Source of the DNA: Taxawa tesnikishii (nom. ined.)
Lineage: Eukaryota > Ascomycota > Dothideomycetes > Dothideales
Assembly (NCBI GenBank): GCA_030247885.1
Contig: JAPDRO010000001.1
Span: 2,480,001 to 2,544,000, forward strand
DNA: 64,000 bases
Direction of reading: 5' to 3'
Under the pieces are notes generated by a model. It was not told the DNA's origin and made no database searches. It saw only the letters and a program-made list of their open reading frames with translations. The position numbers and the translations under genes were made by a program. Of this stretch, positions 6,873 through 63,223 are shown in pieces. The stretch's first letter is position 1; every line of letters begins with the position of its first letter.

Positions 6873-9204
6873 TCATATCTTCCTGTTCATACCGTCCCGC
6901 CACCTAACGTACCCCTCCGTCATCTCGGGCGTGATCCTGCGTACCGCCCTCTTGACAGCATCCTCAAAGTCCTGCTGACATATCACCGGCTTCTCCCCAT
7001 CATCCTTGGCCGAGCCATTTTTGAGCTTTGCGATGTGCCGCCTCGCACTGACCCGCCCGGCTTCGAGGCAGATATTGACGATCTCTGCGCCGGAATATCC
7101 CTCCGTCTGCCGCGCAAGCGCCTCGATATCGACGTCAGTGAGAGCAACGCCGCGCGTCCGGATGCTGAAAATCTCCCTCCGCGCATTGTAGTCGGGCGGT
7201 CCGACATACATCAAGCTGTCGAAGCGACCGGGGCGCAGCAGCGCGGGGTCGAGAATGTCTGGCTTGTTGGTTGCGGCGAGGACGAGGACGCCGTTCAGGC
7301 TTTCGATGCCGTCCATCTCGTTCAGGAGGGTTGTGAGGACGTTCAGACCCTTTGTGCCGCCGGCTTCGCGCTCTGAGCCGATCGAGTCGATCTCGTCGAA
7401 GAAGATGATGCTGGGTGCGGCAGCACGGGCTTTGCGGAAGACCTCGCGAACGGCGCGTTCGGACTCGCCAACGTACATTGATGTGAGTTCGGCGCCCTTG
7501 ACGGCGATGAAGTTGAGGCCTGAAGATGTGGCGATTGCTTTTGCGGTCAATGTCTTCGAGCAGCCGGGTGGTCCGTAAAGGAGGATGCCCTTCTGTGGGG
7601 TGAGGTTGAGACTGGACATTACCTCGGGATACCTCAGTGGCCATTCTACGACTTCGTCGAGGGCCTCTTTATGCCGGCCGAACCCCGATATCTGACCAAT
7701 GCACTTTGGGTGTTTCCAGGAAAACCTCTTTCATAGCACTCGGCCGCGTATCCAGTAAGGCCTTCTCGAAATCCTCTATGGAAAGCTCGATTCCTGCTGG
7801 CTCGTTTGGCGTTTCAGTGGAACCCTCTTTACCGACCGTCCCATTGGCAAGAGTCTCTGACGTGCCATCTGCCTCGCCACCATCTTGTACCGGAGCCAAG
7901 TCCAACTGTGCGAGGTAACGATCGGCAGCATGCTCTCGGGCGTTTTCCACCAAAGCCTCCAGATCCTGCCCCACGTATCCATGAGTGCGTTCGCCAATAC
8001 TTTCCGACAGCGCTTGTGACTGTCCGTTTTCACCTTGTAGAACCTTCAAAATCTGAATTCGAGCTTGCATATCCGGAATTGGTACTTCGATCTCGTAGCG
8101 TAAGCGACCTGGCGTACGAAGAGACTTGTCGATGTCATTTTGCCGACTGGAAGCGGCAACGACAAGCACCTGCGTATTCTTCAGGTTGTCGAGCTCGGCT
8201 GCTAGTATAGGCGCAAGGCTAGCTGAGGGCAAGGCATCTCTACTTTGAGCACCAGCTATGATGTCTAGATTGTCCATCACGATTAGACTTGGCTGCTGGG
8301 ATATTGCGTCTGCGAAAATGCTACGAACAGCGGCCTGCGACTTGCTTGTGCTTGCCGTAGTGCCCAGACTCGACTGGTCAATCCGGAGGACTTTGCACCA
8401 GGGCAATTCCGCAAGCCCACGCAACAAGAGACTCTTTCCAGTTCCCTCGGGGCCGTAGAGCAGAATACCGCCATCGCGGCGAATTCCGGTCGGCAGCCTT
8501 CTGCCTCTGACCTCTCCGATTAAGCGAGAAAGCCGTTTATTGAGGAACTCGATCTGTTTGAGGAGGCCACCGATGCCACTCGAGTTCAGCTCGAAGGTCG
8601 GTAGTGATCTTGGCAGAACCGGTGCAGGCGGAGAAGCCTTATCCTGCATCACCAATTCCGTCTCATCGCTGAATGTGAACAAGGTGTTGTTGCTTGCCGC
8701 AGCAGACTCGATCTTCTCAATCCTGAAGCGCTTCTTCAGGCCTTTACGGGAGCTTTCCTCGAAGGTAACTCCAGTGGCAAACGCTTCTACAGACCCTAGC
8801 CTCAAGCTGCACCGAGCCTTCCATATGTTGTCGTCCTTCGCTGGGTCCGCGCCGTTGTTGTCTGGCTGCTCAACCAGGACCACTCGGTCCGCACGCACGA
8901 TCTGCGCGTTGAGTTTTGAGATGGTAAACTGCTTGCCGACATGGAAACCAAACATGTTCCGGAACATGTCTGTCGTCTTCACCGGGTGAGGCCCTTGCAC
9001 CTTCGTCACCTGGTCCGTAGACCTCCAAACATAGCCCATCGCCTGGCAGCCATCGGACCCGGTAAGCTGGCAGAGGTCCCCAGGGGTGATCTCCAGTCTC
9101 TTCAAGTCGTCGCTGCGGATATGGATTCTGAATGCGCCATCCAGTGGGGTGGGCACATCTTGCTTCTCTGGCAGCGGTCGCACAACAAAGATGGATTCTG
9201 CCAT
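6873..9204 (-). CDS. AFG2: AFG2/Drg1 (SPATA5-type) AAA-ATPase for pre-60S ribosome maturation
   Basis: Type II AAA protein of about 775 residues starting at MAESIFVV (ATG at 9204). In yeast the hexamer strips Rlp24 from cytoplasmic pre-60S particles. Residues 1-200 form the N domain. D1 has Walker A GPEGTGKS at 251-258, but the Walker B region reads LIVMDNLDII near 308, with Asn where the catalytic Glu should be. D2 is canonical: GPPGCSKT, FFDEIDSIG and an intact arginine-finger region (LRPGRFD). At the start of D2, after WSDIG, the frame changes beside a run of four G (minus strand, 7683-7686). The next frame continues FGRHKEALDEVVEW, so the gene is split into two open frames. No intron fits. 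Divergent from the mitochondrial gene at 9653. Confidence 0.88.
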
Positions 9205-9652
9205 GTTGAAGCTGTCGAGGATCACGCGCTCTGATATTCAAATGCTGCTGCCACCTAGTTCGAGGAAAATTCGTAGATTACTTACTTGGAGAAATGTTTT
9301 CATTGGTTTGTAGGACTAGTTTACAACCATGCAATTTGACCCTTGACCTTCGGGTGTTACTCACCTCCCTTCTCGATTTTGAATGCCACGACTGTGAGTA
9401 AGTACGACAGCACCTCAGTATGTCGGATAACCTAAGCATAAACTCATGCCCAAGGGGTGTCGAGATTCTTTGGAGTGAGTTGCTATGTGCATGTTGTTCG
9501 AACTCAAACGATCAACTTACCGGTCAAAAGAGCGGGCAGGCCATAAGTCGTGCTCCAGTTTCCGTCCAATGAAGTTGTCCCAAAGGCCGCAAAATATATA
9601 CTCTAACTATTGACTCTCCAGACTAGATGCTCCCGTTCATCATCCCCAATTG
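9205..9652. other. Divergent promoter region, AFG2 / mitochondrial gene
   Basis: About 450 bp separates the two start codons. No coding signal is visible; it should hold both promoters. Confidence 0.5.
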
Positions 9653-10959: not shown

Positions 10960-11061
10960 CAACATATACGTGTGTGCCTGTGTGCCGGTGTACCTCCATC
11001 TCCCGAACGCCCCAGCGCTATGCCATAGGAAAGACGTGAAGATGGCGTGTCCTCAAAGTAA

Positions 11062-12052
11062 CGTTCATTCATCCATCTGCCATGCGTATTCCAGCTCCTT
11101 TCTGTCCTTTTGTCGGTTTCGGGCGGCGAACCATTGTCTTTCGAAGCCATTACTCCTGTTCACGCCGTCCCATCTGTAACCAGGCTTGATGCCGTATCTG
11201 TTCGGCTCAAACGCACCAGCATAAGTTTTCTTCCCTTTGCAGCCTTTCCATTCTTCCCAGAGCTCTTGCTCATAAGCGCCGCCATTGGATCATTCCACCG
11301 TTCCCGTTCCTTCAGCTCCGCATTCAGCTCCTTATCATCCGCATGCCGTGCTACGGTCATGTACTTTGCATCCTCCAGCTCTCGTTTCCTTTCCTCCTTC
11401 TGCCGTCTCTGCACATCACCCCTCGCGCTCTCTTCCTCCTCTTCCTTCTTCTTCGCGTCTGCTTCCGCCTGCCGCCGCAGCTCCGCCCGCTTCATGGCAA
11501 CGTTGATGATCCGACCCGACGCATCTCGATAAATCGTCTCTTGTGCTTTGCCAGTCGGATCCATGCCAGCCTCCTGCATCGCTTTCCGCTCCTCGCGTTC
11601 GCGCTTCTTCAAGGCAGCAGTGACCTGCGCTGCCGTCTGCAGTCCCGCCATAGCCCCCGACGCCATCTGCGGGCCCGACATATCGACGTCTCCTCCATTT
11701 TCGTCGACGACGGCGGGCTGGTCGTCGTCCTCTTGCGCTCGGGCTGCGGACTCTGCTGCCGCGTCGGCGAGGATGGCGTCGGCGGCCGCTTGCTCGGAAT
11801 TTGTGGGCGCTACGCTGCCGACGGTCTTCCAAGACGTTTTACGGTTGCTGGCTTTTGCCCCGCTGGGTACGAAGGTGGGCGCATCATCGTCGTCGTCTTC
11901 GGCGTCGTTGTTGCGGGATTTGGAGAAGACGTCGACGTCGTCGTCGGCGATGGTGAGGCCGGTTTCGGCTTGCTTGCGCTTGCGTTTTTGCTGGGCTTGG
12001 ATGAGGTGTCGGCCGAAAGGTAATTCTTGGCAAGGTAGTCGGCGAGACCCAT
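11062..12052 (-). CDS. BUD13: BUD13 homologue (pre-mRNA retention and splicing complex)
   Basis: Bud13 is the scaffold of the RES complex (Bud13-Snu17-Pml1) that helps the spliceosome retain and splice pre-mRNA. The start [15 protein letters not shown] (ATG 12052) and the C-terminal signature [20 protein letters not shown]...WFAARN are diagnostic. Between them lie a basic/acidic linker and [10 protein letters not shown]. The coding frame changes twice with no intron that could explain it: near 11993-11995 (a run of three C on the coding strand, before [10 protein letters not shown]) and near 11233-11235 (three G, before [10 protein letters not shown]). Each is healed on paper by one extra base of the same run. 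Divergent from the ATL gene, with 284 bp between starts. Confidence 0.88.
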
Positions 12053-16728: not shown

Positions 16729-18662
16729 TCACACGAGTGATGAGTACATATTGTTCTTCTGCCAAGCAACGTCTGCCTCGCTGTTGCTTTCACCACGACC
16801 CTGGCCTGCTTTCTTCTTTCTCTTCTTCTTGTTTTTGGCTCCGGTAGTAATTGGCGCCTTTACCCCGAAGGCGTTACATAATTCCTCGACAATGCTAGAG
16901 CACTTCTCCAGCTCACCTTCACCAAGTTGTACGTACTCATCAAACATATCCATCAGGCTCGGCAGATCTGAAAGGGCTCCTGACAATTCCTGCAGCACAG
17001 CCACAGTATCTACATTGCTTCCGTCGCGGCGTAGAACGCTTAGCACGAAAGCGAGTATCTCCCGGAGAGTCCGGAAAGAGTACAGAGCGGCTTGGGTTTG
17101 AGCTGAAGCATGGATGAACGACCAGCTCATGATGCTGCCTCTCGTGTTGGCCACCAGGCGGGTGAGCTCGGTACCAGATGGGACGGGTTTGTCCAGCTCG
17201 ACGTTTGCTCCGCAGACGCAATATACAGCCAAGACACGCCAACGGGTAACTGTAGACATCGTCCCGAATCTTGGTTGCTCTAGCCTGATGGTTGACAACA
17301 TGGAAGTTGCCGCGGCAGAGATGTCTTGACGGGGAGGAGAGATATTGTGGTTTGCGACGTGCGCGTCCCTTTGCGTTCGTACTCGTCAATTTGCGAAACA
17401 GAGCAATCAAGCAGGCGGACAAGAGAGTAAGCCAGGCGCCTTATGCTCTCTCCTGCACGCCATGCGGATGTCTTTGTTGGATCCTCGATCAACACAGGTA
17501 GATACACGTCAAGATCCCTAGCTGGAGAAGACGGTTCAGCTTTCACGTCGATTGTGTGAATCAGTTCTGATATCCTCGGATCTAATCGTGCAAGAATACT
17601 CCTGGTAGTGTCGGGAAGGATGTCGGATCCGGTTTGTAAAAACATGGAGTATACCGGCAGAGTCGCATAATGAAGCCTGAATTCCGCAAATTTTTCAGCA
17701 TCGGGTGATCCTTCCTCGGCCAAGCGAACACAATCAGTAAAGCTCCGGTGGTTGTCCTCAGCTATGAAGAAAGCAAGCTTCAGGAGATCCTCAAGGTTCA
17801 GTCTTGCTGCAATACCCGCTGGATGGTATTCGGTTATTTTCAGTATCAGGCCCTTGCTGGCTATATGTGCGCTCTCGATATCTCTGAAGAGAACCACCCG
17901 GCCTTCCGGGCCAAGATCATGAGCCAGTAGGTCTGAGTCGCTAGTGAAGATTATGCCTCCAGTCTGTCGACAAGTATAAGCACAGTAGGAGTCGGCTTCT
18001 CCCGGAACGACCGACGTGAGGCTTGCGTAGGGACTCGAAAGGAGAGCCTCGATGACAGCAGGCACGAGAAATGTTGGCGCAGGCAGAGCCTTTAGCCTTG
18101 TTGGTGAAAGAGCAGAGTTCAGTAGATCAGAGGGCCTCAAGGAAATACTCGCGAGGCGAGGCGGCAAATCTTCCTGTTAAGTGCTCTAAACGTGACAAGC
18201 TGGTTCGTGTAGCTCTGCAGACGGGATAACCTGACATCCTTCTTCGAGGTAGGCAGCAGTCCATCAAAGTGAATAGCTTGGCTGCAGGAGAGAAGAAATC
18301 AGCCACTTACTCTATTTTCACGAGAAACCTGTTGCATCCGGTTGCTCATATAAAACGGCTCTTGCTCCGAAATAGGACTGCCCATTCGCCAGGCTTACGT
18401 ACACTTTGAGACCATATTTCTCAATCTGTTCAAGCCACCAGATGGCCGCTTGTCCAAGTTCTCGATAAGAAGGAGCAGCCTCAAGCGCATTCCTCGCGCC
18501 AGGACGCTGAGCTAAGCACACGTAATAGACGTGGTAAGCAAGGCTAGGCCCATCAATGATTGCCTTCGTGGCTTCCTGCGGAGAAGGTGTCGCGGCCTGC
18601 TGCTTCAGCGCCGATTTGGTGGCATATGCGTCCAGGTGGTGGACAAGACGAGGTATTCCCAT
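16729..18662 (-). CDS. Asteroid/XPG-domain protein (FEN1-superfamily nuclease fold)
   Basis: MGIPRLVHHLDAYA and IDGPSLAYHVYY form the N-terminal XPG-like region. Exon 1 is 18403-18662; a 121-nt intron (18282-18402) joins KV to QAIHFDGLLPTSKKDVRLSRLQ. The XPG-I-like core follows: VPGEADSYCAYTCRQTGGIIFTSDSDLL, with the acidic residues expected of a metal-binding nuclease centre. The C-terminal asteroid region includes DEYERKGTRTSQTTISLLP and ends in a basic KNKKKRKKK tail. The frame jumps twice: near 18167-18176, before LPPRLASISLRP, and at the four-base run 17331-17334, before RQDISAAATSML. One missing base would explain each. The family function in fungi is poorly known. Confidence 0.8.
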
Positions 18663-21600: not shown

Positions 21601-21712
21601 GTTTGTTGGTGACACCACACTGCCACAAGCATCTATAAAACCCCTTGCTCATCCAGCAAAGGCATACGTCGAGACCGATCAAGACACACCCCAATCAGCC
21701 AACAGCCAAGTC
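18663..21712. other. Gene-poor stretch, about 3 kb
   Basis: Only short open frames without recognisable motifs; the longest (21010-21474, + strand, about 150 codons) has no family resemblance. No transposase, reverse transcriptase or terminal repeats are visible, and base composition does not look AT-rich. It may hold a long promoter or a non-coding RNA, but nothing positive supports either. Confidence 0.5.
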
Positions 21713-22168
21713 ATGTACATCAGCGCCATGTCGTCCTCACCCATCAGCTCGACTACTTCGGAGCAGAATACGCCCTCACAACCGATTCAAATCGGCTTCA
21801 CGCCTTCGGGCACTGACGCGTTGCTCGACATCTTTCCCAGCGCGCCATCGACCTCATCGTACGCGTCGCAGTGCGCCTTCCCATCCTGGCCGTCTGGCTC
21901 TCGCCTCTTCTCTTCTCAGCAGCGGATGAACATACCCAACTCTTATATTTCCGATGAGGACCTTTTTGGAGACCTTTCCACACCCGGTGACGACCACGCA
22001 CCATACCTCACCGAAGCACCAGAGCCACCTCGCCCAGCCGAGGCATGGTTGGCAGAGCCGTTGCTGCCACTGATCGCCAGCGAGAGGCCCAGAAGGAGGA
22101 GCAGCAAGAAAGAGACGCGTCCACACTTGAAGCCAACTAGGTCCTCTCCCAAGAAGACCCCGGTGTGA
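21713..22168 (+). CDS. Small intrinsically disordered protein of unknown function
   Basis: Uninterrupted frame of 151 residues from the ATG at 21713. A second ATG at 21728 (MSSSPISS) has a better start context and may be the real one. The N-terminal half is Ser/Thr/Pro-rich. The most distinctive segment is QQRMNIPNSYISDEDLFGDL, a type I recall from small Ser/Pro-rich fungal proteins. It ends with a basic cluster (RPRRRSSKKETRP), a possible nuclear localisation signal. No enzyme motif is seen. Confidence 0.6.
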   Translation: MYISAMSSSPISSTTSEQNTPSQPIQIGFTPSGTDALLDIFPSAPSTSSYASQCAFPSWPSGSRLFSSQQRMNIPNSYISDEDLFGDLSTPGDDHAPYLTEAPEPPRPAEAWLAEPLLPLIASERPRRRSSKKETRPHLKPTRSSPKKTPV

Positions 22169-24691: not shown

Positions 24692-24702
24692 TGCGTGGGA
24701 AT

Positions 24703-27700: not shown

Positions 27701-30048
27701 TCTTTGCCCGCTTGCGGCAAGAGTCAAAGACACGGAATGGATCTCGTGAAAGAATGCCAGAGGGCCTCTCTCTGCAAGTTCTCGATACGGCATTTCTCGA
27801 CAGCGCAGTCACGCCTGGACTCAGCACTCAAGGAACGGAGTCTGGCATAAGCACACTTGACGAGTACGCCAGTCGCACGGGCGCCATCAGTCCACCTCTA
27901 ACGGGCGAGAGTCTGCAAAGTGGCAGAGTGCACGCACGACAGCAGCGTGCCGAAAGCCGTTCCAGAGCAGCAAGTCGAGATGGCAGGACACGCAGATACC
28001 GTGATCCATCAGAGACTCGCGGCCGTGCGGGCGTGAAATACATCAAGCCGGCCAAACGATCACCGTCTTCTCCAGTGCCAATGTCCCCGGATGAAGTCTT
28101 TGCGGCTACCCGGGCAACGGCAAACCAAGCTGATGAAAGCTATTACAACGTAACCTCCCCTGTAGAGTCGACCTCAAGTCGAGTCTCACGAAGCCAAAGC
28201 AGAACCCTGGAGTCTGGGAGCGAATCGCGGTCAGAGCAACAAGCAGCATCTCCAGTACGAGCTTCTGCTAAGGGATCATCGAGGGCCGCGAGCAGAGCAA
28301 CGAGCCGCCACAGGAGCCCAGAAGGTCAACGCCTACGCACCAACATGCGCGGTCGCAGCCAATCAAGAAAAGCAGGTTCCTTGGCAAGATCTCCCTCTTC
28401 GCCGTTGCCTATGTCGCCTGAGACGAAGCATAATGAGGAAGATGAGACACAGAGTGATGGCCAGAGAGTCCGTATCCGGCAACACAGCTCGAGCCGCAAG
28501 CCGAGAGAACCATCCGTCCAAAGAGGAGTATCCCGTGTCCGTGCTGGATCAAGTAGCAGACGACCCGATGAGCTAGATACAGGCTTGGGCATGCACATTC
28601 CTAACATAACCGTCGACGGCACTGCTCAGTCTGAAAGATTCACAACAGCATCAGAGAAGCAACCCCAACGTCGCGATTTGACGAAGTTGACGCGCAAGGA
28701 GCTTGCCGCGAGGGAGCTGGAGGAGCGACGCTTGTCGCTTGCACGACGTCCTTCAGCCCCTGCCATCCCCTGCCGGGCCAATCTCCGGCAAAGAGGCCTG
28801 GCATGGCCCCTCGACACCATACCGAGCTTGGTGACAGTCCACACTCGTTCCTTCCACCCTACTCCGGTCCGTCGATTTCTCGAAGCCAAACCGTGGATCC
28901 CGAAGCTATGATGCGGTATGGTCCAAGGACGACAGGCACTTCGACTCCTTCAGCACCTATTGGTCTCCCGGCTACGCCTCGAGCGATGAGGCACCCTAGA
29001 TATATGAGCAGTGATCCGAACGAGCGGGAGAATATACCTGCAGTGCCGGATATTCCGGACACCCTGCCACAGCTCACTCCAGCAGTCTTTGGCCAGCCGG
29101 TGAAATCTGCCGAGCCACAGACCGACACCTTGGCGCCTCTTCTGCCTTCGACAGTGTATGGCCAGAAAGGGCCTCAAGCGCCCACTCGCTCGGCGTCAGC
29201 GCCGCCAGAGAAGATGGGTCTGCCTTCGCACCCGGCCTACAAGGCAGCCTTGCCGCACTCGAGCCGACGTGCTTCTCTCAGCCGCCACGTACGAAAGATA
29301 TCGCCCACTGAGAACGAAGTCGCGACTCAACCTCACAGCCCGCCCATGGTCACGGGCAGCATCGACCAGGCCCTACATGACAGTCAGGTTATCATCATCG
29401 AAGAGCCCGAAGCCCCAGCTATCGTCCTTCCCGAGCTGCAGCACCTTGCTGGTCCACCCCTCCGCCTCCGCCACCAACGATCTTCTCGAGCGCTGCTACT
29501 GCCCACCAACCGACCAACAGCTTGGGTGTCATCAACATCGCCATCGAAGAAGACGCACCCATGATAATCGACGTCACGCCTGAGCTGCCACGCGCCACGA
29601 CAGCAAGCCCAAGCATGCACCGCCGTGGCCGAGGTTCCATCAGTAACGGCTCCGTGTCCCACGACGCCTCGTCCTTTGGCTCACGCTTCCGCACTATCGG
29701 CGACCGCATGCGCAGCACCTCCGCTCGCGCGCCAAGTCGCCTCCGATGGAGTCCAGCGGTTACAAGCCTTCACCCTACGAAACCGTCCTGCCACCCATGC
29801 CGCGCCGCGAATCTCTTAGTTCCTCGTCGCGTCCCGCACAAGAAGCGATTCCACCTCCGCCGCCACCGCCTCCGGAGCCGCCTGTCGGAGGTCCCGGCGG
29901 CCCGCTTGTCGAGCGCGTGGTCCCACCCGAGAGGAGTCAGAACGCCATGGGCGGGTATGGGGGCTACAGGCATCCGAAGGAGATCAGGGCGAACATGCCG
30001 CCCGAGACGTTGCAACAGGGTGTCTATCAGCCTGGAGGAATGATTTAA
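24703..30048 (+). CDS. Large WD40-repeat protein with Gemin5-like helical domain and disordered SR/Pro-rich tail
   Basis: Exons 24703-25117, 25171-25657, 25747-26594, then 26643-30048. N-terminal half: WD-like blades (TAIVWDIFTGDEVARF, DGDLRVWSI, ETRAWDVRTKKV). Middle: a helical-repeat region (SQKKVGEAFVQRLLEKGDIH, AVEVYVSQGYHMEAVLL) resembling the TPR-like part of Gemin5-type proteins. The C-terminal half is disordered, with Ser-Arg blocks, SPVPMSP motifs and a proline run. The frame changes at C-runs 27171-27176, 28767-28770 and 29458-29461 and near 29725-29733. Each time the neighbouring frame continues in the same style, so I read one protein of about 1,700 residues, not five. A role in RNP assembly or scaffolding is inferred from family resemblance only. 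Confidence 0.78.
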
Positions 30049-30780: not shown

Positions 30781-32647
30781 ATGAACGCCCACAAAGACGA
30801 CGCCAAGCAGACCTCCTCCCCGCCAGCCATTCCCCATCCTCGGTGAACCAGGACGACCGCGCCTCCAGCACCGCCCCGGCAACAACAACAACAAGCAACA
30901 GACGCTCATTATGGCGGCGCGTATACGACCTAACCACCTACACGCCTCCACGATGTCGCTGGGACCCGGAGAAGCCGCCCGTCTTCAGCATGCCGCTGAA
31001 CGTGCTGTTCGGCTTCGCGGGCGCCTTCACCGTCGCGAATCTGTACTACAACCACCCGATCCTGAACATTCTGGCGCATGACTTTGAAGTCGAGTACGAA
31101 AAGGTCTCGCAGATACCGACGGTGATGCAGGCCGGGTATGCGGCGGGATTGCTGTTCTTGTGCCCGTTGGGGGATCTGCTCAAGAGGAGGGCTTTTGTGC
31201 TGAGTTTGGTCTTCTTTACGGCGACTATGTGGTAGGTTTTGCTCTCTCTGAGTTTCTGCGGATTCGGGGTCATGGTGGTTTGGGGAAGGGGGATGAGTTT
31301 AGGTTGGAAGGGAGGCGAGAATATATATATGGGTTCGAGGATGTGAGACGAGGGGATGTTGGAGAGGATTCTGGCGAGGAACAAGGACGGGACGGTGTTG
31401 TTGACGGATCGCAGGATCGGCCTCTGTATAACGAACTCGCTGGCCGTCTTCACGGCCATCTCGTTCATCACGGCCATTACAACCGTAACGCCTCAGCTGA
31501 TGCTCCCACTCGTCGGAGATCTCGCACCACCCAACAAGCGGGCCGCCGCGCTCTCCATCGTGGTCTCCGGGCTCCTCCTGGGCATGTTGATAGCACGTCT
31601 GCTATCCGGAATCCTCACAAACTACACCTCGTGGCGGACGATCTACTGGCTCTCGCTGGGACTGCAATACGCCATCTTCGGGCTGCTCTGGCTCTTCATG
31701 CCGGACTATCCCTGCACGAACCCGGAGGGAATCAACTACTTCAAGCTCCTGTGGTCCATCATCTTGATGCTATTCGAGCACCCCGTGCTCGTACAAGCCT
31801 GCTTCATCACCTTCTTCACCGCCGCCACCTTCACCTGTTTCTGGACCACGCTGACCTTCCTCCTCTCTTCGCCACCCTACTCCTACGACTCCCTCGTCAT
31901 CGGCTTGTTCGCCCTCATCGGCATCGCCTCCATGTTCTGCGGCCCCGTGTACGCGCGCCTCGTCATCGACAAATTCGTGCCCCTCTTCTCCGTCATCCTC
32001 GGCGAGCTCTGGTGCATGCTCGGCATCTGCATCGGCACCTACACGGGCACCTTCACCGTCGCGGGCCCCATCATCCAGGCCTTTCTGAACGACTTCGGCC
32101 TCCAGACCGCACAGATCGCGAACCGAAGCGCCATCTATGCCATCGCTCCCAAGGCCAGGAACAGAGTCAACACGGCGTTCATGGTCGCGACTTTCTGTGG
32201 CCAACTCGTGGGCACGGCGGCGGGTAACCATCTGTACGCGAGAGCGGGCTGGATCGCGAGTGGCAGTTACAGCGTCGCGAGCATCGGTGCCGCGCTCGTG
32301 TGCTGTTTTGCAAGGGGCCCATGGGAGGAAGGATGGCTAGGTTGGAGCGGAGGGTGGAGTGTCAGGAAGAAGAGTGCGACGAGCGCGGATGGCAAGACGG
32401 AGGAGAAGGCGGCGCACGGTGGCGAACACGGCGGCGGTAAGCCGGGGAACAGTTCGCTGCTAACGAGCAGGATGCGGAGAAGGGCATCGAGTTGGCAGCT
32501 GCCGAGGCCGAAGACACTCCCGGTGGCGAGTTGAGGGATGTGGAAGGTAGTCTGGGTGAGAGCAGTGCCAAGGAGAAGGAGGACGAGGACGAGATTACAC
32601 CTCAACGGCCTGCCGATGCTGCTGGAACAATGTCCGAGAAGATGTAG
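30781..32647 (+). CDS. MFS transporter (DHA1/YnfM-like drug or sugar efflux type)
   Basis: Start MNAHKDDAKQTSS at 30781. Hydrophobic segments begin with VLFGFAGAFTVANLYYNHPIL and GYAAGLLFLCPLGDLLKRRAF, the latter containing the G-x3-D-x2-(R/K)-R loop of MFS proteins. A 182-nt intron (31233-31414) separates TATMW from IGLCITNSLAVF. More membrane helices follow to about 32330. The frame is broken near each end: after AIP at a four-C run (30832-30835) and after KPG at a four-G run (32444-32447). Beyond the second, the acidic cytoplasmic tail continues to EKM at 32647. The substrate is unknown. Confidence 0.82.
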
Positions 32648-35030: not shown

Positions 35031-36795
35031 ATGGGTAAGACGTACAACATCTTGTTGGCTTGCTTCGCCGCGACAGGGTATGCACTTTTTTTTCAAACTC
35101 AGCAGTCACAAACCATCAATCTGATGACTTCTCAGCTCGTTCCTGTTCGGTTACGACTCTGGTGTGATGACGGATGTCATTGCATCTCCCAACTTCCTCA
35201 ACTACTTCCACACGGAGGACACCTCTCCGATCATCGGTGCCATCAACTCGACCTTCAGCGGAGGTGCCGTTTTCGGCTCCCTCATGGGTGGTCTGACCAT
35301 GGACCGCTTGGGTCGCAGGAAAACGATTCAGATCGGTGCTCTCGTTGCCGCAATCGGCGCCATCCTGCAGTGCGCTGCAGTCGACCTTGCAATGATTCTC
35401 GTCGGCCGTATTATTTCCGGATGGGCTGTAAGTGGTTTGATCGACCGCACAACTTTTCGTAATCGTGCTGGTAGCTAATCTTGGTCGGTTAAGGTGGGTA
35501 TCATGTCCATGTCCGTCCCAGTCTACCAGGCCGAATGCGCACACCCCGCATGCGTGGTCTCATTGTCGGATTGACTCAGCAGATGATTGGTGTCGGGTTC
35601 ATCGTGTCCACCTGGATCGGATACGGGTCCCTCCACGCTCCGGATTCCAACTCTGTGCAATGGAGGTGAGTGGGCGCGTGTTGTTGGATCTTGGGTGTTT
35701 GATGCTTATGTTTTTTTACACAGGTTCCCGCTTGCTTTCCAAGCACTGCCCTCTCTCGTGCTCCTCGCCGGACTTTTCGTGCTTCCAGAATCTCCCCGCT
35801 GGTTGATCGAGAAGGACCGCAACGAGGACGGGCTTGCCGTGCTTCAGAAGCTGCACGGCCAGGAGCCAGAGGACTGGATCATGGCGGAATACAACGAGAT
35901 CAGAGCGACCATTGCGGCGGAGAGGGCAGTCACCGTGCAGAGCTGGAGCGTCATGTTCAAGGTGCCGCAGTGGAGGCTCCGCCTGATGCACGGCACTCTG
36001 GTGCAGGTGTTCACTCAGCTCACCGGTATCAACGTCATCGGCTACTACCAGACGATCATGTACAGGGCGCTCGGCATCACCGGTCACCGCAACACCCTGG
36101 TCGCCGGCATCTACAACGTCGTGGGCCCGATCACAAACTTCTTCTTCATCACCTTCTTCTTGGACAGAGTGGGCAGGAGAAAGCCGCTTCTCTTCGGTGC
36201 CGCAGGCATCACCATCGCCCTCATCTGCGAGGCCGTCATCAACTCGCAAAACGTCGACGGAACGCGTCACGGCCTCTCGATCGCCGGCGTCTTCTTCCTG
36301 TTCCTGGTCTCCTGCATCTTCTCCGTCTCGTTCGGCCCCATTTCGTGGGTATACATGTGAGTAGTTCGGCGGTGCCCCGATAACTTCCTAAAAAATAGCA
36401 CGAGAGCTGACAGCTGGTTCGTTTTTCATTGCAGGTCCGAAGTCATGCCCATGCAGATCCGCGGTCGCGGCAACGCGTTCGCTACCGGCATCGGCAACTG
36501 GCTCGTCAGCACCCTCTTCGCGCAAGTCAGTCCGATCGCTTTGGGCAAGATCGGGTGGAAGTACTACTTCGTGTTCTGCGCGTTCAACATCGTCGTCACC
36601 ATCCCAACGGTTTTCTTCGTCTTCAAGGAGACGAACCAGTTGAGTTTGGAAGAGATTGACTTGCTGTTCGGCGAGAGAGCTCTGGGTAACCTTCCCGAGA
36701 ACCTCGCCGAGAAGGACGTGGACGACGTGATTCGTAATGCTAGTGTCGGAAACGGAAAGGCGGCGGGAGTGAGCACGCATGAGGACAAGGTGTAG
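35031..36795 (+). CDS. MFS sugar porter (hexose/quinate type)
   Basis: Five exons: 35031-35077, 35136-35427, 35494-35665, 35724-36356, 36435-36795; all introns are 58-78 nt with good GT..AG ends. Sugar porter motifs in order: SFLFGYDSGVM in helix 1, DRLGRRKT in loop 2-3, GRIISGWAVGI, PVYQAE, PESPRWLI, the substrate-site QLTGINVIGYYQT in helix 7, DRVGRRKPL in loop 8-9, SEVMPMQIRGRGNA, and KETNQLSLEEID in place of the PETKG-like ending. It should import a monosaccharide or related polyol/acid across the plasma membrane by proton symport. After AECAHP the frame slips at a four-C run (35544-35547) and resumes as RMRGLIVGLTQQ. Confidence 0.92.
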
Positions 36796-37164: not shown

Positions 37165-38022
37165 CTACATATTCTCCCTGAACATGCTCCTTCTCTCCGT
37201 CGGGCTGTCGTCGTTGCTGACAGCGCCCAAACTCTGCTGTTGCCTGTGACCTCTGGCGCCGGCGCCCGCGCTCGCCGTATCAACCATGGGCCGCGGACTC
37301 ATTCCTCGCAAGTTCATGTCGCTCCTTTCCGCCTCGTCGCCGAAAGGGTTGCCGCGTGCTCCTCCGCCCATCTCTTCATCATACCGGTGATCCAGCTCCC
37401 GCTGCCTGCTCCTACTCCTGCCCCTACCCTCCTCGATCCCGCCAACGCCGACGTTACCTCCACCGTACCCTCCCCACCGTACGGGCCCGTGGCGGGATCC
37501 TGCAGCCCGAGCTCCTGCTCCTCGTAGTACCCGCCGTAATCGGCTTCGTTCCCGACGCGCGTGTCCCAGGCCTCGTCCGGATCCAGGGGCCCGAAACCGC
37601 GTCTGTCTCGACCACGTCCTCCCCCTCCGCCGTAGCCCGTCGATTCGTACGCGCCGCCGGCCGTCCGTCCGTTCCGGAACCGATCGATCTTGGACGTGAA
37701 CCAGCCCTGGATGCCGCCTGGAGCGGGAGCGGGAGCCGTGTAGGTACTGTTGTTTGCGCGGGAGGAGCGCGCGAAGGGATTTAGCGACGGTGCTGGGAGA
37801 CCGAGGCGGCGCGCGCGGTACTGAGTGAATCTGTAGACGGAGGGGTTAGTGAGGCTGAAGGAGGCCGGCCGCGGAGATGGAGTATGGGCAATTGAGGAAG
37901 GCGCGGTTTGTGGAAACGTACATGATCCAGCCTACGGCGGCTATGAGGGCGAGGACAACGAGTACGATGATGAAGATGGCCCACCCGGAGGGCCCGTGGT
38001 GGTCGTCGTGGTCGTCAGCCAT
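37165..38022 (-). CDS. Single-pass membrane protein, conserved fungal type, function unknown
   Basis: Exon 1 (37922-38022) encodes a short Asp/His-rich N terminus and one transmembrane helix (WAIFIIVLVVLALIAAVGWI). A 91-nt intron (37831-37921) leads into FTQYRARRLGLPAPSLNPF. The cytoplasmic part has GRDRRGFGPLDPDEAWDTRVG, YYEEQELGLQDP and ends SPTERRSMFRENM. I recall this layout from filamentous fungi, where relatives are sometimes labelled acid phosphatase-like without any visible catalytic motif. The frame slips at a four-base run (37472-37475), after PYGG, and continues as YGGGNVGVGG. About 255 residues in all. Positive-inside charge suggests a short outside N terminus. Confidence 0.78.
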
Positions 38023-41330: not shown

Positions 41331-44300
41331 TTACTCCTTCAACTGCGCCCTTAATCCCACAACCTCCCTCTTGAGCCTCGCATTGTCTCTCCTGAGTCTC
41401 GCCGCCTCCTCCTGGCCCTCTCTGATCTTACGCCTCAACTCCTCGACGCCCTCACCGCTCTTCACGACCTTCAGCACGCGGCTCAACTCGTCGTTGAACT
41501 TCTGGTACAGGGCTTCGTTCTCCGCGTTCGCGTCGCGGTACAGCTCGTCCAGCTTTCTCGCCTTCGCTTCAGATACGGCGAGGGAGGAGGAAAGGTCCGC
41601 TTGTATGCTGTCGGTGCGGTTGTTCAGGGGGCGATGAGAGAGGACAGGGTGGATTCGAGAGCAGCGAGGCGGGAGCTTAGTTCTGCAGCTGATGGATGGG
41701 CATTGGCGGAAGTTATGGATGGAGCTGGGGATGACCGGATGGTGTAAGGGGAAGAGGCCAGTCCGGACTTGCCACGCACAGAGCCTACACGACCGGGCCC
41801 CAGTGCGGTGATCTCGTCACCGATACGCGAGAGCTCGTCTTGAAGTGTGTTCTGTGTGCTGGTGATGGCTTTCTGTTCCGTTTGCAAGCGCTCGCGCAGT
41901 TTTTGCGGCGACTGCATGCGCAGTTTCCGTGTTGGGGTCGAGACGGCTGACGGAGGCGGCATGCTTGCTGACTCGTTCTCCTTGGACTTGGTCGAAAGTG
42001 AGGAGGCGGGCTTGATCTTCATAGTATTACCCGTGTTTGGCCGTTCGGAGAGACCGGTGCGGACGGGAACAGGAGTTGAGGAAGGGGCACGCTCGGACCG
42101 TGGCGCGAGCGTGGGGATGTTTGAGTGTCGGAGGGAGGCGTGGGTGGTGATGGTAACTTCATCGGAGGGCTGCTTGCTCAAACTGCGCGGCCGCCCAGTC
42201 GGGATCTGACTCGGCGCTTGAGGCGAGCTTGGTGAGTTCTCCTTGCGAAACGAGGATGGCAAGCGCGAGCGGGGACTGTCACGGACGGGTGAGCCGAATC
42301 TCGCGTTAGTGCCATGAACCGATGCTGTCTTGGTCGGCGTGGGCGCTGTTGTCCCGCCGTTCCACCAAGCGTTGCCGGAAGTGGCCGCAGGTGGTTCCAT
42401 CTTCCTAGCTGGTGAGGGCGTGAAAAGCGGCGAGCCGGTGATGTTCAGGTCCAGCGTCTTGAGATCCGATAGAGAGCTTCTACGCTTCTTCTTCGGTATG
42501 CCACTGGACTGTGGTGTTGTGTGTTCGCCAATGGTTCCCAGTGGCGAGTTCTGGATGAAAGAACTAGCATCTTGAGACGCTGGTCGCTCGAAGGGATACG
42601 CTCCCAACACCTTTGGTCTGTCCTGCGAATTCGGACGTTGTGGAGTCATACGTGAGTCCATGTCTGTAGATTTTGTCCTCTGAAGAGAACCTTTGAGATG
42701 CTCGGAGGATCACCGCGAGTGCTCTTGCTGAGGGTGCGCGCGAAGAAGCCGGATTTCGAGTCGTTCTCCGACTTGCTGTTCTCCCGTGCGAGCGTACCGA
42801 AGCCAAACTTCTTGCGCAAAGACGATGTGTTGGAGGTCAAAGATCCGGTGTTGACGGAACGGGAGCGGGTATGTCCATTTCCTGATCCTGTTGTTGGCTT
42901 GACCTCTTGTACTTCGACTGTCTCACCGAAGAGAGATTCCATGTCCTCTACGAAGCGGTCAATGAGTGACACAAAACTCATCACGTCCGCTTCGGGTGCT
43001 AGCACTTCTACGAACGCCGCAGTGAGGATTCCCCGGTCTCCGTCGTTGCCAGTGCCGTCAAGCAGCTCTGCAAGCAGCTTAATCACACCCTTTAGGGCTC
43101 GCTGGTTTTGAGGGACCATGTTGTGGAAGGTATCCTTGAAGTACTTCTCGAATTCCACAGGGAACAGTGTTTCCGCTTTCGACTGTATCGCCTCCAATAT
43201 AGGCAATGGCATGACTGGTCCAAAGTGGTCTTGCCAGACGACATTGAGGAATTTCTCAAAGGCTGCGAACAGTACATCGACCGAAGCTTGAGCAGGGTAG
43301 ACCATGTTCTGCGGCTCTTCAAGCAGAGAGTTGTAAAGGTCGTTCACAGCAAGCTCATCAGCATTGATTCTCCCTCGTATGACTTTGCCTACCACATTAC
43401 CCTTTCTATGAAGAAGCGCCAGCAGATACGATGACAGTGTGTCTTCGAGCCTGTTTGTCGGCGCGGCGGATACAGCGATGGGTTCAAGGCGTGTTGCGGG
43501 ATTTGAACCCGGTTGGTCTTTGAGGTCGGTCGACTTTGGTCCTTGCTAGTCGGTCTCGAAGCAGAAGTGGCAGGAGGCGGCAGGACGGGTGCATCGGTGA
43601 TCACCGCAGTAGAGTTGTGCAGCTTCTTGGCCCCGCTTGGCTGATGACTCAAGATCGAACTGGACACCAGGTTTGAAATCATCTTCACCGGTGAACGGGG
43701 TCGGTGCGTGTACTCGCCACGTTGAGGAGCAGTCGAGTTTCCTACCGCAGAAGCTGGTCCGGAGTGAAGACGAGAGCACTCCAGTATCTGTTGATTCCGC
43801 ACCACAAAGCAACCGGTCAAGGGTGGGTATCTGATGGAAAAGCGGGCGTGGAGTAGATGCGTTACTGCTCGTGCGGTCAGCCATGACGTCTAGTTGTAGT
43901 ATAGATACAGACTCACATCGCCGTGTTAGCACAGGTAGGAACTCGGTTTCTGTAACGCGATCACGAGTTCCGCTCATCAATATGCTGTCCATTGCGACTT
44001 GCCAGAAGCCATTACCGAGATTGAACACAGAGATAACAGCTTCGACGCCGTCTTCTCCAGCTTTCACGAGAGTTTCATGCTTTGCGGGGTCGAAAACAAT
44101 CCGGATAGGCGCTGAACCATTTCCTGCTGTCTCAAACGGTACAGAAGGGCTTTCGTAAACGGCATTGAAAAGCCCCAATTCGCCTGTTGCAGGTGGTGCG
44201 CTACGCACTTCCCAAGTGGGGCTCTCCCGGACGGTCTCCGTGAATCGACCTTCTACTCTGGCCTTCGTCATCTCCTCGAGAAATCTGGAAGCCTTGCCGG

Positions 44301-49279: not shown

Positions 49280-52200
49280 TTACTCTCCGTCTCTCATGTT
49301 TTCCACTTCGTCAGGCGAAATTTCATCCTCAAAATCCTCATCATCATAGAAGCCCTTCCTCCTCGCATCCGTAACAAGGATAGCGCCATCTCTGCCGAGG
49401 ATGGGTCCGACCTGCTTCTGCCTCAGTTCAAGCGCGACGAGCTTCTCCTCGTCTTGCTCCTGGTTCTTGCTCATTTGTTTAGGACGTCCAGGACCCGTCT
49501 GTCTCGCAGGCCCCGGTTGACCTTCCGCAACGCTTGGTGTTGGAGTTGGCGTGATTTTCGGTGTTACACGTCGACCATGTGCATCACTCATGTAAGCTTC
49601 ACTCTGCTCAGATTCATGAGCGTCTGTCGGACTGTTAGTACTATGCACTGCTGCTCTGTTCAGGTATGGAAGCACCTGACAATCCGCCCCTTGGCCCATC
49701 GCCCAGTTCCCATGCGATTGGCCGAAGGTGGGTTTCCTCGATGTGGTCCAGTTGAGTACCAACATCTTTGAATCGCAGTGGTTGTACTATTGCTTTGCCT
49801 TTTGCGTGCGCTTCGGAGACGGTAGATGCACAGTCCTTCCAAAGACATCTGAAGGGCTTGTCCGACTCGTCCAGTGGTTTGCCATGCACTTTGAGCACGT
49901 GTTTGCGCAGAGTTTCGAGATTATGAAGATTTGCGCCACAGTCCTGCCATCCGCAGATGTATTCCTTAAAATCTGGTTCTGGCAAGATGACTTTCTCTTT
50001 GGGTGGTCTACCAGGTTTCCTCTTCGGAGGCGCGTAATTTGGCTGTTCTACGTCGCGGCGCGAACGGCCTGCTAGTTCCGGAGTGTTGTTTTGCAGCTCT
50101 CCAGTCTGGGCGGCCTTGCTATGGATTGACTTGCGCCAGCCGACGGGACGGCCCTTCTTCTTGATCGGATTCCCATTCTCGTCATATTGTCTGAATGCTG
50201 AGTAGCCAGCAGGACCAGGAGGCGGCGTTCCACTTCCTGCAGCGCCCGCAATTCGCGCGCCGACATGAGTGTTCGCATCACCTGGCGTCGGAGGTGGCGG
50301 CATGGTATTGGTCCTTGCGGGCTGGGATGATCGTTCGCTGTTTGTGGCTTTGTTTACACTCGTGTTTTGGCCTGGGGTATCACCGAATCCGGCTGGGCGG
50401 GAGCTGATTCCGTGGTTTGTGTGACGCGGGGTCGCCCTCTGCGCCTCTTTGTTGGGAATTTTGTTGTTGCTTCTGGAGTGTGAAGTTCGGTGAGCGTCAA
50501 AGTTCCATCTCCATTGTCCACGGCTTGGCGCGACGCCGGAGCGATTCCGGGGACGGAAGCTGGTTCGTCGTCTTCGTCGTCTGCATCTTCCACGCTCTCA
50601 TCATCAGCAACTGACTCTTCTTGAGCCTTTGGTTCGGGTAACGGCTCGCCAGGATCGATTAGGTCCCAACGGACAGTGCTAAGGTCGAACTTGTCCCACG
50701 AGCAGTCTTGCCCGCTATGCGCTTTTAGAAAGTCGGACATGCCCATCAAATGCTGGTTCAAGGACGTCATTTCAGGATGACGACCGGTAGCCAGCAGAAC
50801 GTCCCTAGCGATAGTCTTGGGGTCGTAAGTAGATTTGCGCGCAACCTTTGCACGGCGGATTGGCTCAACCAGAATCCTGTGTCTAAGCTCCTCCTCACGT
50901 GTTGGTACTTTCTGCTGTGCCATTTCTACCGCTTCTGGGAGCTTGACAGTGCCGTCTGGCAAAATTGTCGCTCCTTCAACACCGGTCCCAAGGGGTCCGT
51001 CCACACGAGCTGGACCGTTGTACATGTACTGCTGGAAATTTGATGCGCCGTTAGGCTGCAGTGATGGCGACATAGCAGAGGAGAATCCGGCTGGCTGTCC
51101 CAGGTTTGGGATCTTGTTCGGCTGAAATACCACATCATCGTCATCGTCGGCGGTCAAATCTACCAAATCAGCAAAGTTGCGCTTGCGCGCAGCCTCTTCT
51201 TTGTTACGAGGCTTCGGGGTCGGGACAGAAGGTTGCGGAGCCTGGGATGGCCGTGGAGGCTGGCCGGCTCTTGGCGCAAAGTAAGGGCTTTGCACGGTGC
51301 CATTGTTCACGAGATGTGGAGCAAATGATGGCCTCGGCGGTCCCGGTGGTTGCTTTGGCGCTACGTGTGCTTGACTGGGAGCGGGCGCATAGTTATCGAA
51401 ATCCGGAGGGGCACTGAAACCCAGGTTTGACTGATAGACGACAGTACTGCGGTCAGCAGCCAGTTCAGCTTGGTACATAGTAGAGAGTGATGGTCCAGAA
51501 GACGGCTCTGGAGCCGGCGTGTTGTCGGTTAGATCTACAATTTTCATTGGTCTCGGTTGAGCTGGTGTGCCGTCTTTTCTAGGTCGTCCGCGTGATTTGG
51601 TGCCCTTTGCTGAACTCGAAGGCGTGCTCTTAGCAGACTGCGTCGGAGTGGCAGTTGCGGCACCACTGACTAGTGGCTGCGTCGGGTTGATCTTTGACGG
51701 AGTAGGAAGACCGGTGGCTCTACTTAGGTCTGGGACAGCAGCGAGCAAAGCGCGAGCGAACGCTGCTCTATCAACAGATAAGCCCATTTTCTCGAGAGTT
51801 TCGCACAGAACAATGTATGAGGGATTTGAGTCAAGCAGTGCGACAATGCTGTCGGCTGTCACTGTCTTGCCTGTATTGTCGGGCTTTTCATTGAGCCATT
51901 TCGCAGCGGCTTTTGCAAGATGGATCTTCTTCCCTGGGGGCCAGATACCAGGAGGGTTGCCATTGGCAGACCCTGGTTGTACCACTTTGTGAGTAACTAC
52001 TGCAGGAGGAAGTGCAGGTTTCGATGACGCCGGCACTGGTGGGATTTGCGTAGCACTTGCTGTAAACCGTGGCGCAGGTGGTAGTGGCGCTTTCTTCCTC
52101 TGAGCAGGGGCTGGCGGGGCTGGGTGAGCTTGAGACTTTGTTGTTGGTGCTGATCGAGAGGGTGCAGGAACTGGAGCTTTGCTGGGGGCCGCGGCAGGCG

Positions 52201-55430: not shown

Positions 55431-57981
55431 CTACCACGCCCACATGCATTTGTAGTTCAAAATCCTAGCACCCAAACGATCATACTCCAATTGACCGATC
55501 CAGCTATCGTTCGTGCCCCTGAGCTTCCCGAACACGCTCCCGCCCTTCCAGACCAGGACCTGGGGTCCAGCTCTCTCGGAGGCGGGCCGATCAGGATCTC
55601 CTTCTGGTAACTCGGCTGCAGAGCGCGCAGCCGTTGCTCCAGGTACACGTTGAAGTTGTAGATTTTGGACCCCCACCGATGACCATGATGCCGCCGAGGA
55701 AGTCGCGGGTCTTGCGCTCGTCGCCGCGCGCGCCTTCGCCGATGGACAAGAGGATTGCTTGATCCAGCGGCATCACGGGAACTGTCCGGTCCTGCATCTC
55801 GGTGTCGGGCTGAGGGCCGCTGATTCCGGCGGTCACGAGAGGCGTCGCTTCTCGCCCCGGGACGGGTGTGGCGTTTTCTTCGGGCGCGGGCGAGGCGGCG
55901 GGCGAGGGGCGTGGCGTGCCATCGCCGTCGTCGTGGAGATGGGAGAGGTGCTCCGTGTGTGTTGGTTTGCTGGGCGTCGAGGCTACGTCGGGAGCGGGAG
56001 AGGCTGCGGGCTTCGGTGCAGTCGTGGGCTCGCTGGGGGAACTTTATCGGCAGTGGGTGTGTCGTTTACGGCGCTCGGCACGTTTTGGATCGCGTATTGG
56101 AGGATGTTGAGCTGTGCTACGGTCATCGGATCGTTGGGCATGCCGTCGTAGAGGTCGGTCGAGCGGTCGATGAGTTTGCGTCGGTCTTGCAGTTTGCTGC
56201 TGTGGTCGAAGATGGTCGGTCGGAAGAAACCCTGCGGATGAGATAAGAAAACAGTTTTCGGCGTGAAGTGAGAAAGTAGACTTACCATCGGCGCAAGCAT
56301 GACCTCGTCATATGTCTTGAATTGATATCTCCTCGTGTCTTGTCCGGCCGCACGCAGATGGAATTCGTACAGCTGGACACTGATGTGCGCATCCTCCATG
56401 GTGCAGAATTTCTGTTTTAACTCTTCCGCTAGCAAATAGTCGTACCGTCTGTTCAGATTGATATCCGTGTAGTTGAAGTGGTCGAACAACATCATTTTGA
56501 TGAATGTCTCCGTGACATCCTCGCCACCATATTTCAGGTTGACCCTCGAGCTCTCGATGCACATACCTTCCTCGACACAGCAAACTGACGTCTTTTGTGC
56601 GCCAACGTCTACAATACAGGCTGTAGAATAGCCCGCACCGAAGGTGGCCGCTAAACTCTCCTGGATGAAGCATACGCGCTGAAATCCGAAATCCCGAAGC
56701 AACTCGTGCAAGGTTTGCGCAAGAACGGTCTTCTCGTACAGGTCCGGGACGACAAACACACACGAATACTGAGCCCAGTCTCTCTTCCGTGGTAGACCTA
56801 GTTGAGACTTAATGGCTTCTTCTATGATGAGAAAGAAATCCCGGTAGAGAAGGGTTTTGTTTTGGTAATCTTTCTCGTTCATCCATCCGTGCCTCAAAGG
56901 CCAGAAAAGTCGATACCTCGGATTGGAGTTGTCCGGTATGCGTAGCGCTGCCTGTCCTGTGAAGTACTCCGGTGCATCCTTAGGATTCGGTGGTATCTCA
57001 GTCCATTCAATCCGCATAGGATCGTTGTGTTCAGAGATGGTGTCAGGCGGATTCCTCGTGTTCCAGTTTACGACCAGCTCCCGAGAGTTGGGCAGAACCC
57101 TCCGCTTGTTGTTTCGTCGATAGACTTTGAAATCGCTGGCCATGTTGTTGTACTCGTTCGCAAACTAGCCTTGGGTTAGTCAGGTTTTTCCTTCTTCAGT
57201 TTTCTGTCCAGAGCGTACGTCTTCACCGAACCAGGTCTCTGGCTCGCCCACAGAGCCATCATCCAACTTCATCCGCTTTGGGCGAGGCTCACCGCCGTTT
57301 ACTTCAGATTCCGACTCGGGTGCCCGACGAGCTATGACCATAGGAACAGTTTTCGGTAGAGCGTCAGTCGCAAGTCCAAGTCGCAAGTTCTGACTACCGG
57401 GGTGAATGACGATGGTTCTAGATCCGTAGGCTTCGGCTTCAGCGCCATCCTCCATTGCAACATCATCTTCAAGATCAGCTTCCGGATCTACAGCCGCTCC
57501 GCTGTTCAGAGCCCTGTCGCGATCTCTGGCGGCTTTTGTCATGCGGTTGCGCTTCTCCTCTTCCTGGAGACGAAGCGCAAGGATTTGGTCATCGCGCTTG
57601 AGGAAGTCACTACGAACAGTTGGGTCAGTGCTTTGTTCTCACTCACAAACACGCAAACGAGCGAAGGTGTACCCTAGTGCTCTCTCATGGCGGACATAGA
57701 CACCTCTCGGCATCTCTGCAGAGGTGACAACGGAATGGAACAGCAGGGAGGAGGAACACGAGTTGCGGTGTGTCAAGCGAAGAAGAATGTTGCGACGCAC
57801 GTGTAATAGTTCTTCTGGTTTATCATAGAAACTTGGGGCCAGATAGTGAGATCCATGTTGTTGTCGGTCCTCTGGAGCCCTAATCTCGTTTTAGTAATTG
57901 GGCATAAGGCTTTCGAGTAATTCGTTCTTAACACACACCCTCCTCCTTCAGGAGTCTACTGCCCGACTTCTTGCCCACCAT
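55431..57981 (-). CDS. ARP8: Actin-related protein 8 (INO80 complex)
   Basis: Arp8 joins Arp4 and actin on the INO80 HSA domain and contacts linker DNA. Exons: 57939-57981 (MVGKKSGSRLLKEE), 57801-57879, 57219-57609, 56286-57164, 55431-56231, with introns of 59, 191, 54 and 54 nt. Diagnostic motifs: LQRTDNNMDLTIWPQVSMIN, IVIHPGSQNLRLGLATDALP, SEHNDPMRIEWTEIP, the actin-fold ACIVDVGAQKTSVCCVEEG, and C-terminal MPLDQAILLSI, GGIMVIGGG, WIGQLEYDRLG. Three frame slips fall in the last exon at base runs 56035-56039, 55670-55674 and 55562-55565; one extra base in each restores the expected C terminus. An acidic/Pro-rich insert (PAASPAPEEN) interrupts the actin fold, as is usual for fungal Arp8. Confidence 0.92.
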
Positions 57982-59288
<1,307 letters not shown>

Positions 59289-61552: not shown

Positions 61553-62263
61553 TGCAGTGCTTTCGGCGTTGGTGGACCGGTACTTACATATATCCTTTTC
61601 CTCGCAGCGCTGAGAGCTTACGATCATCAGCTGGCTTAAAGAGGGGAAAGCACTGAGCAGGGGCGTTCGGTGGAGTGGTAAAGGCTCTACATATCACGCT
61701 GATGTTTGCCGCCCTCGCTGGCGCGGTTCTAGTGAAGATGTTATGCCTCCTGCTTCTCCATCCTGTCTTCTTCTCTCACGAAGCATCGACCCACGAGTAT
61801 ATTGACAGTGACAATGATTTGCGCGTGGAACGGTCGCCCAAACCGGATGACAGTCACAATAATCGTCGCATTGGCCGGCTGCGCAAGAGTAGGGGACGAC
61901 GAATCGAGCGCTGAAAATCGGAAATTGGCATATATACCGTTTGCCATTGGGCAGCAAGGCGCTCTCGATGCTAGCGAAGGATGTTGCAAAAATCCGTGCC
62001 CCTGCCATCATCTCACAATCTTCACATGAGCAGCAAAAGCAATCTTTCAAAAGATGACCGTCATGGCGGTACCTGATTATTCTTCGACCGTGATCGTAAA
62101 GTGACCGCGAGGGGAACAGTTCTATCCAAAACGCCCCCGCTACCGGCCCCGCCAGGTGTCTAAACAACAAAAAGAGCAACAAGAATACCAAGGACCTTCA
62201 AGAGTTCGTTTCAACGTTGTGAAGTCCCCCCCAAAATCCGAGCCCAAGAGCAAACCAATTCTA
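61553..62263. other. Intergenic between convergent genes, about 710 bp
   Basis: No convincing gene or RNA. Confidence 0.5.
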
Positions 62264-63223
62264 TCATCTCTTCTTGCTGCCCCGCGCGCTTGCGTTATCC
62301 CAGATGGTCTGCAGCGCATTCCTCGCACGCTGCTCTCTCCTCTCGAACGGTTTATTGTAGATACTCCAAAGCGGCCTCGCCGAATCTGTGCGCTCAACGT
62401 TAGCAAAAATCGTCGGCCCCACGCGGAAAAGCGAGAAGACAAATGTCTCAAACTGCCCACTCTCCCACCGGAAGCCTCAAGCAACCAAAGGGGGTGGAGA
62501 GATTGGGTAAATGCAGCACGGGAAGAAAAGGAGAAAGAAACTCACTGGCATGATCGTCGGCGAACCCAACACTCTCGACCCCTTCTTCCTCGCCTCCTGC
62601 ACCGCGTCCTCCAACAAGGCAGTCCCGACTCCTTTTCCTCTATACCGCAACCTGACGGCCCACCCCTGACCTCGCCGTTCCAACCTTTCCGTCTCTTGCC
62701 CCTGCTGTCCGCCGGCACCCACCCGATGACGACCGCACCGATGACTTCGTCGCCGAACTTTGTCACCAGCACGTCGGCATTCTGCAAAACGCGGGCGCGT
62801 TGCGCGAGAAGTCCTCGGCGAGGTAGATGTAGCCACTCGTGAGCCACCTCACGGAGACGAGCGCGGCCATGGTGATGCCGGCGAGGGTGGTGAAGAGCAC
62901 GCCGGCGTCGGACGAGTCCTTGTAGATGTACCGGCTGACCGCGCTCATGAACGCAATGTAGAGGGCCAGGTTGAGCGGGTGGAAGATCAGCGCCCGCGAG
63001 GCCGTTTGCCGCATCTGGGCGACGCTGTCGGCGACCAGTTTGAGCGCGGCTGTCATCTCGTCGGGATCGTGGGTGACGTAGCTTCGCAGCGGTGGAATGT
63101 CATCGAGTGGGTTCTTGGCAGATTCGGGGAGAGCGGAGGGGAGGGCGGAGCGGCGGTCGCGGCAAGGGGAGAGGGTGGTGGAAGGCTCGAAGTGGAGGCT
63201 TGCATGCTGGGCGGGGTGCTCAT
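62264..63223 (-). CDS. Membrane-linked GNAT-family N-acetyltransferase
   Basis: Exon 1 (62546-63223) starts MSTPPSMQAS, with a Pro/Ser-rich leader. After NPLDDIPPLRSYVTHDPDEM come two hydrophobic segments (FHPLNLALYIAFMSAV and VLFTTLAGITMAALVSV), then the acetyltransferase fold: VLVTKFGDEVIGAVVIGWV, followed by the acetyl-CoA-binding motif A, RYRGKGVGTALLEDAV. A 160-nt intron (62386-62545) leads to NSARPLWSIYNKPFERRE and a basic end. The frame slips at 63126-63129, near 62811-62815, at 62663-62666 and at 62579-62582; all need one extra base, three of them in four-base runs. It resembles fungal GNAT proteins with a membrane-embedded N-terminal part; substrate unknown. Confidence 0.78.

Follow-up and report, generated by a model that had tools for sequence, protein, structure and literature searches.

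The window, a stretch of 64,000 nucleotides (positions 2480001-2544000 of contig C1), is part of a genome assembly of 29,367,862 bases in 34 contigs and contains a series of protein-coding genes in which the reading frame breaks. Its gene content, which includes CFEM, Bud13, Arp8, Ost4 and RPL26, identifies the source as a fungus, and more narrowly as an ascomycete. Frames were decoded with a gene model in which coding sequence follows a three-periodic Markov chain, GT-AG introns of 42-160 bases are represented explicitly and frameshifts have states of their own. Training used the window together with pieces taken from the same genome, and the model hence scores its own training sequence. With cheap introns, a first version called 857 introns but just 17 breaks over 293 kb; introns were made more costly in its successor, for which the main setting was a frameshift penalty of 9.2 and an intron penalty of 11.5. 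At this setting the window yielded 16 breaks in 36,547 decoded coding bases, 15 of them in the sense of a missing base and one in the sense of an extra base.

At the left end of the window, a forward-strand gene that crosses the boundary has two base-missing breaks (78..200; 90% intervals 51-87 and 186-209). An AFG2-like AAA ATPase on the reverse strand is broken between its two ATPase domains (7679..7714), as judged by both the gene model and homologue spacing. The break was called at 7701, the start coordinate in the original prediction being 7683. This was the window's sole extra-base call, and an insertion could be ruled out: aligned to chain 7nku_A, the pieces pass from residue 520 to 517-521 across the frame change at run 7683-7686 and meet two bases short. 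The reverse-strand gene for a Bud13-like splicing factor (11219..12025) contains two base-missing breaks supported by the gene model and by Pfam Bud13, which matches over positions 1-100 in one frame and 103-144 in the next, with the frame changing at approximately 11241-11233. An asteroid/XPG-like gene on the same strand is broken behind its XPG_I_2 domain (17315..17376; gene model and domain match). In one long forward-strand gene (28766..29743) the gene model placed three base-missing breaks, at approximately 28767-28820, 29460 and 29723.

Two forward-strand transporter genes follow. The first, an MFS transporter, is broken in its C-terminal tail (32440..32460; gene model and domain match), and the second, a member of the sugar-transporter family, has a gene-model break (35523..35549) where the domain match changes frame near the predicted run. 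On the reverse strand the gene model further called a break in a gene without a Pfam match (37453..37489) and one close to the 3' end of the gene chain in which a Bud3-like RhoGEF is also decoded (41626..41651). A reverse-strand C2H2 finger gene (50374..50505) has one break, placed at 50374-50377 in the original prediction and at 50443-50505 by the gene model; the call, at 50469, is perhaps the same event as the one predicted at 50374. Arp8 (55562..56041, reverse strand) carries three breaks, at approximately 55562, 55670 and 56035, which distribute one protein over four successive frames. Besides the gene model this is supported by chain 8a5d_U, to which three of the four frames align, up to 534, at 581-671 and at 703-746; the short middle (fourth) frame returned no matches when searched alone. 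A GNAT acetyltransferase-like gene (62570..62808, reverse strand) has a supported break at 62663, a called break at 62791 and a predicted break at 62579. The GNAT profile runs in one frame from approximately 62665, and the preceding decoded coding sequence lies in a different frame, in agreement with the gene model.

The original prediction had named 21 short runs as sites of a missing base. All 21 were found in place, 42690-42691 being just CC, and at 13 of them the missing base gained independent support. Ten runs lie within the 90% interval of an ab initio base-missing break (11233, 11993, 17331, 28767, 29458, 32444, 35544, 37472, 41627 and 56035), and three more are supported by homology together with decoding (55562, 55670 and 62663). 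The remaining eight, at 16152, 27171, 30832, 42690, 48121, 50374, 62579 and 63126, fall outside the supported set. At 27171 and 42690 the gene model puts introns rather than breaks; their donors are weak and they lack a branch-site match, and therefore the frame-break reading is favoured at both positions. Breaks at approximately 78, 200, 7701, 29723, 50469 and 62791 were called in addition to those predicted.

Genes that had been named as intact looked so where tested: TANGO2 matched over 24-256 of 257 positions and Ost4 over 1-34 of 34, and one exon each of Arf and L26 was matched. For the ATL gene the domain match covers 3-31 of 81 only. The accompanying suggestion that such genes lack G/C runs did not hold up, as runs of at least four occur at 3.82 per kb in the 12 genes for which a break was called and at 3.79 per kb in 13 unbroken genes, that is, those in which the gene model called none. 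TANGO2 and RPL26 carry three and four G/C runs of at least four, respectively, and run scarcity is thus not the reason why they are intact. Unbroken genes are shorter rather than poorer in runs, the median coding length being 579 bp for the 13 unbroken genes and 1778 bp for the 12 broken ones. Two other features of the window may be mentioned here. An open frame of 1007 codons (2888-5908, forward strand), rich in Ser/Thr and bearing a CFEM domain, contains 19 G/C runs of at least four and no called break. Positions 18700-24600 are gene-poor by the gene model, with one open frame (21713-22165) in 6 kb and ordinary composition.

Sampling was extended to 352.8 kb of sequence, including the window, of which approximately 175 kb was decoded as coding. 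The 138,357 decoded coding bases sampled outside the window contained 33 breaks, 30 with a missing base and three with an extra base. Altogether 45 breaks were in the missing and four in the extra direction (P=8e-10 against equality). Planted changes provided a control: the detector found single-base deletions in 172 of 240 trials and single-base duplications in 165 of 240, never called the wrong sign and made no break call in 240 unaltered trials. Since planted deletions and insertions were recovered alike, the 45:4 ratio is not due to the detector. A single missing base everywhere is not upheld, AFG2 having a two-base deficit. For two of the three extra-base calls outside the window, the interval contains a G/C run of five.

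The number of calls depended on the penalties. With the frameshift penalty set to 7, 9.2, 11.5 and 14, the window gave 22, 16, 7 and 2 breaks at an intron penalty of 11.5, and 22, 12, 5 and 0 at an intron penalty of 10. Missing bases outnumbered extra bases in every setting that yielded any call. The missing-to-extra ratios in the window and elsewhere were 7:0 and 20:0 at penalties of 11.5/11.5 (frameshift/intron), 2:0 and 8:0 at 14/11.5, and 0:0 and 4:0 at 14/10. The effect, which had been described for the window, is instead genome-wide, 33 of the 49 breaks lying outside it. Breaks occurred across the assembly irrespective of the gene, although core-gene numbers were small and, for TCP1, low. 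The densest sampled piece (L034, G000:C18:100001-110000) has six base-missing breaks in 10 kb.

To relate the breaks to homopolymers, each break position was represented by its posterior, and the null was obtained by sliding the posteriors along the gene (400 slides). With no prior, runs of at least four held 8.6 of the 45 deletions in posterior mass, compared with a slid mean of 1.8. The enrichment was present for both base classes (G/C 5.7 versus 0.9; A/T 2.9 versus 1.0), and in either class none of the 400 slid controls matched the observed run mass. Estimation by EM gave relative rates per base of 2.4, 25 and 64 for G/C runs of three, four and at least five, and of 21 for A/T runs both of four and of at least five, with values below 1 in the remaining sequence classes. 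Approximately 34 of the 45 deletions were assigned to runs of at least four (90% bootstrap 28-40); the approximately 11 that fall outside count against under-calling. The predicted concentration in G/C runs of four or more was therefore borne out for run length but not for base, the rates at length four being 25-fold for G/C and 21-fold for A/T.

The inferred deficits climb with run length. If the EM assignment is accepted and each affected run is one base short, the shortened fraction of true runs of four, five and six would be 1.4, 19.5 and 84% for G/C and 0.1, 16 and 40% for A/T. Called G/C runs of six in this one genome point the same way, numbering 2 in coding sequence versus 21 expected and 7 in non-coding sequence versus 22 expected. 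A/T sixes are scarce in coding sequence (4 versus 18 expected) but not in non-coding sequence (33 versus 41). The coding deficit of A/T sixes may be biological. No depletion is seen among non-coding A/T runs of at least six (observed/expected 0.81, 0.92 and 1.35), which counts against a simple cap, and therefore there is no hard limit on run length.

Profile spacing in three gene families provided a separate count. Rows were entered by hand (TCP1, 23 of 24; HSP70, 17 of 20; p450, 71 of 106), the choice resting on the presence of a neighbour or, for TCP1 and HSP70, on dropping weak isolated rows; the count omits at least one p450 pair of intron size, and PF00133 was not entered. The resulting 61 neighbouring pairs comprised 49 of intron size and 12 too close for an intron. 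Ten of these 12 lacked one base and two were of another kind; one of the ten is borderline, and a ratio of 9:2 would correspond to P=0.065. Among nine multi-part TCP1/Cpn60 loci one was broken, at a G run, the profile being continuous at 376 across the frame change. The evidence for this break comes from the DNA together with the profile rows; the gene model placed introns there. The TCP1 set thus gave one break in 13.65 kb matched, which is below the expectation from the window rate. A PF00083 search produced nine matches from 323 candidates and no neighbouring pairs. Several further observations were made in the course of these searches. A tRNA-synt_1 match on the reverse strand (G000:C1:572421-574634) has eight internal stops and is overlapped by a match in a second frame, which may reflect introns or damage. 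Across the whole assembly no 5.8S rRNA match was found among 39 scored of 883 candidates, which does not imply absence. A 10 kb AT-rich block (L009, G000:C1:100001-110000) has 76.7% A+T and no decoded gene; the window has 51-61% G+C.

Frame jumps could be mimicked by unrecognised introns, and the gene model itself places introns over several of the predicted sites. Missed introns would, however, be expected to shift the frame both ways rather than 45:4. The donors of the four competing introns (27113-27159, 42664-42713, 55616-55676 and 62597-62663) are weak and none of these introns has a branch-site match, unlike the intron at 62386-62545, which has both a donor and a branch-site match, and the Bud13, Arp8 and AFG2 pieces abut on their homologues. 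Introns are thus a very unlikely source of the breaks. Even less credible is that the short runs are real and that thousands of breaks are tolerated by slipping of the ribosome or RNA polymerase on runs of any base, the frame being restored in RNA or protein. Genome-wide programmed frameshifting, for which Euplotes is the comparison case, or transcriptional slippage would suit breaks that share almost the same sense throughout and sit in runs, at which slippage could happen. Yet approximately 97% of called runs of four remain in frame (15.5 breaks in 590 G/C runs and 9.4 in 430 A/T runs), and stop-linked frameshifting finds no counterpart, with one of 49 breaks within one codon of an old-frame stop compared with a null of 6%.

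A mutator or decaying genome with genuine single-base deletions, such as one that has lost mismatch repair, is improbable, if somewhat less so than either of these. Mismatch-repair defects do give a deletion bias in runs. The break rate was higher in the window than in the rest (0.44 versus 0.24 per kb, P=0.05 at one setting), though not at a stricter one (P=0.48), and the low TCP1 count, small as the numbers are, would fit selection acting on real mutations. A decaying gene would also be expected to show nonsense changes beside its frameshifts, and a model permitting stop read-through found no in-frame nonsense change beside the 49 frameshifts, planted nonsense changes being recovered in 58 of 120 trials. 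AFG2 and the TCP1-family chaperonin, each broken here, are both essential in yeast. Putative mismatch-repair families are present, with MutS-type matches at six places, one of them covering 2-93 of 188 only, and MutL-type matches at three. Together with the absence of nonsense changes, these matches disfavour the loss of mismatch repair that had been raised as the rarer alternative. For Hanseniaspora, from which repair genes have been lost, the accessible text of the report gives more substitutions than indels in homopolymers (PMC6528967).

Read from the assembled sequence alone, the breaks are very probably errors of that sequence, genome-wide and of a known kind. The one-sided direction, the association with runs, the rise with run length, the spread over the assembly and the lack of nonsense changes all favour homopolymer under-calling by the sequencing platform, as originally proposed. 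Single-base runs, most of them truly at least five bases long, would have been called one base short (two in AFG2) in a long-read consensus, and the uncorrected short runs would produce reading-frame jumps scattered throughout the genome. The genes would then be intact in the organism. Gene models of this assembly are accordingly untrustworthy at base level. Provided that the sampled pieces are representative, the 49 breaks found in 352.8 kb correspond to approximately 4,000 detectable breaks in 29.4 Mb, and to more given the approximately 70% recovery. Counts of pseudogenes, lost genes and novel short proteins taken from the assembly would be wrong until the runs have been checked with accurate reads.

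The profile is that of a long-read consensus without homopolymer-length correction, and the platform was probably nanopore. We can only infer the latter because the direction of error differs by nanopore chemistry in published data. As far as the accessible parts of these reports go, homopolymer indels make up most of the systematic errors of nanopore sequencing (PMC8011154) and split genes in nanopore-only fungal assemblies (PMC7500977, PMC5466710), and fewer such errors are reported at depths above 75x (PMC9453082). The assemblies of Drechmeria coniospora (PMC7500977) and Saccharomyces cerevisiae (PMC5466710) likewise combined long contigs with homopolymer indels that split genes, and in both cases short reads corrected them. 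In the accessible text, residual errors after long-read polishing in D. coniospora were more often insertions (PMC7500977), in contrast to the 45 deletions among 49 breaks seen here, and S. cerevisiae R9 reads also erred towards insertions (PMC5466710). The S. cerevisiae R7 assembly was deletion-biased, as is the present one, with 17,445 deletions and 7,707 insertions after polishing (PMC5466710). Early nanopore base-callers, as described in the available portion of PMC5889714, capped runs at five. The sharp drop in G/C runs from five to six and the strong deletion bias are shared with that system; in the present assembly, however, non-coding A/T runs of up to 12 persist, which speaks against a strict cap.
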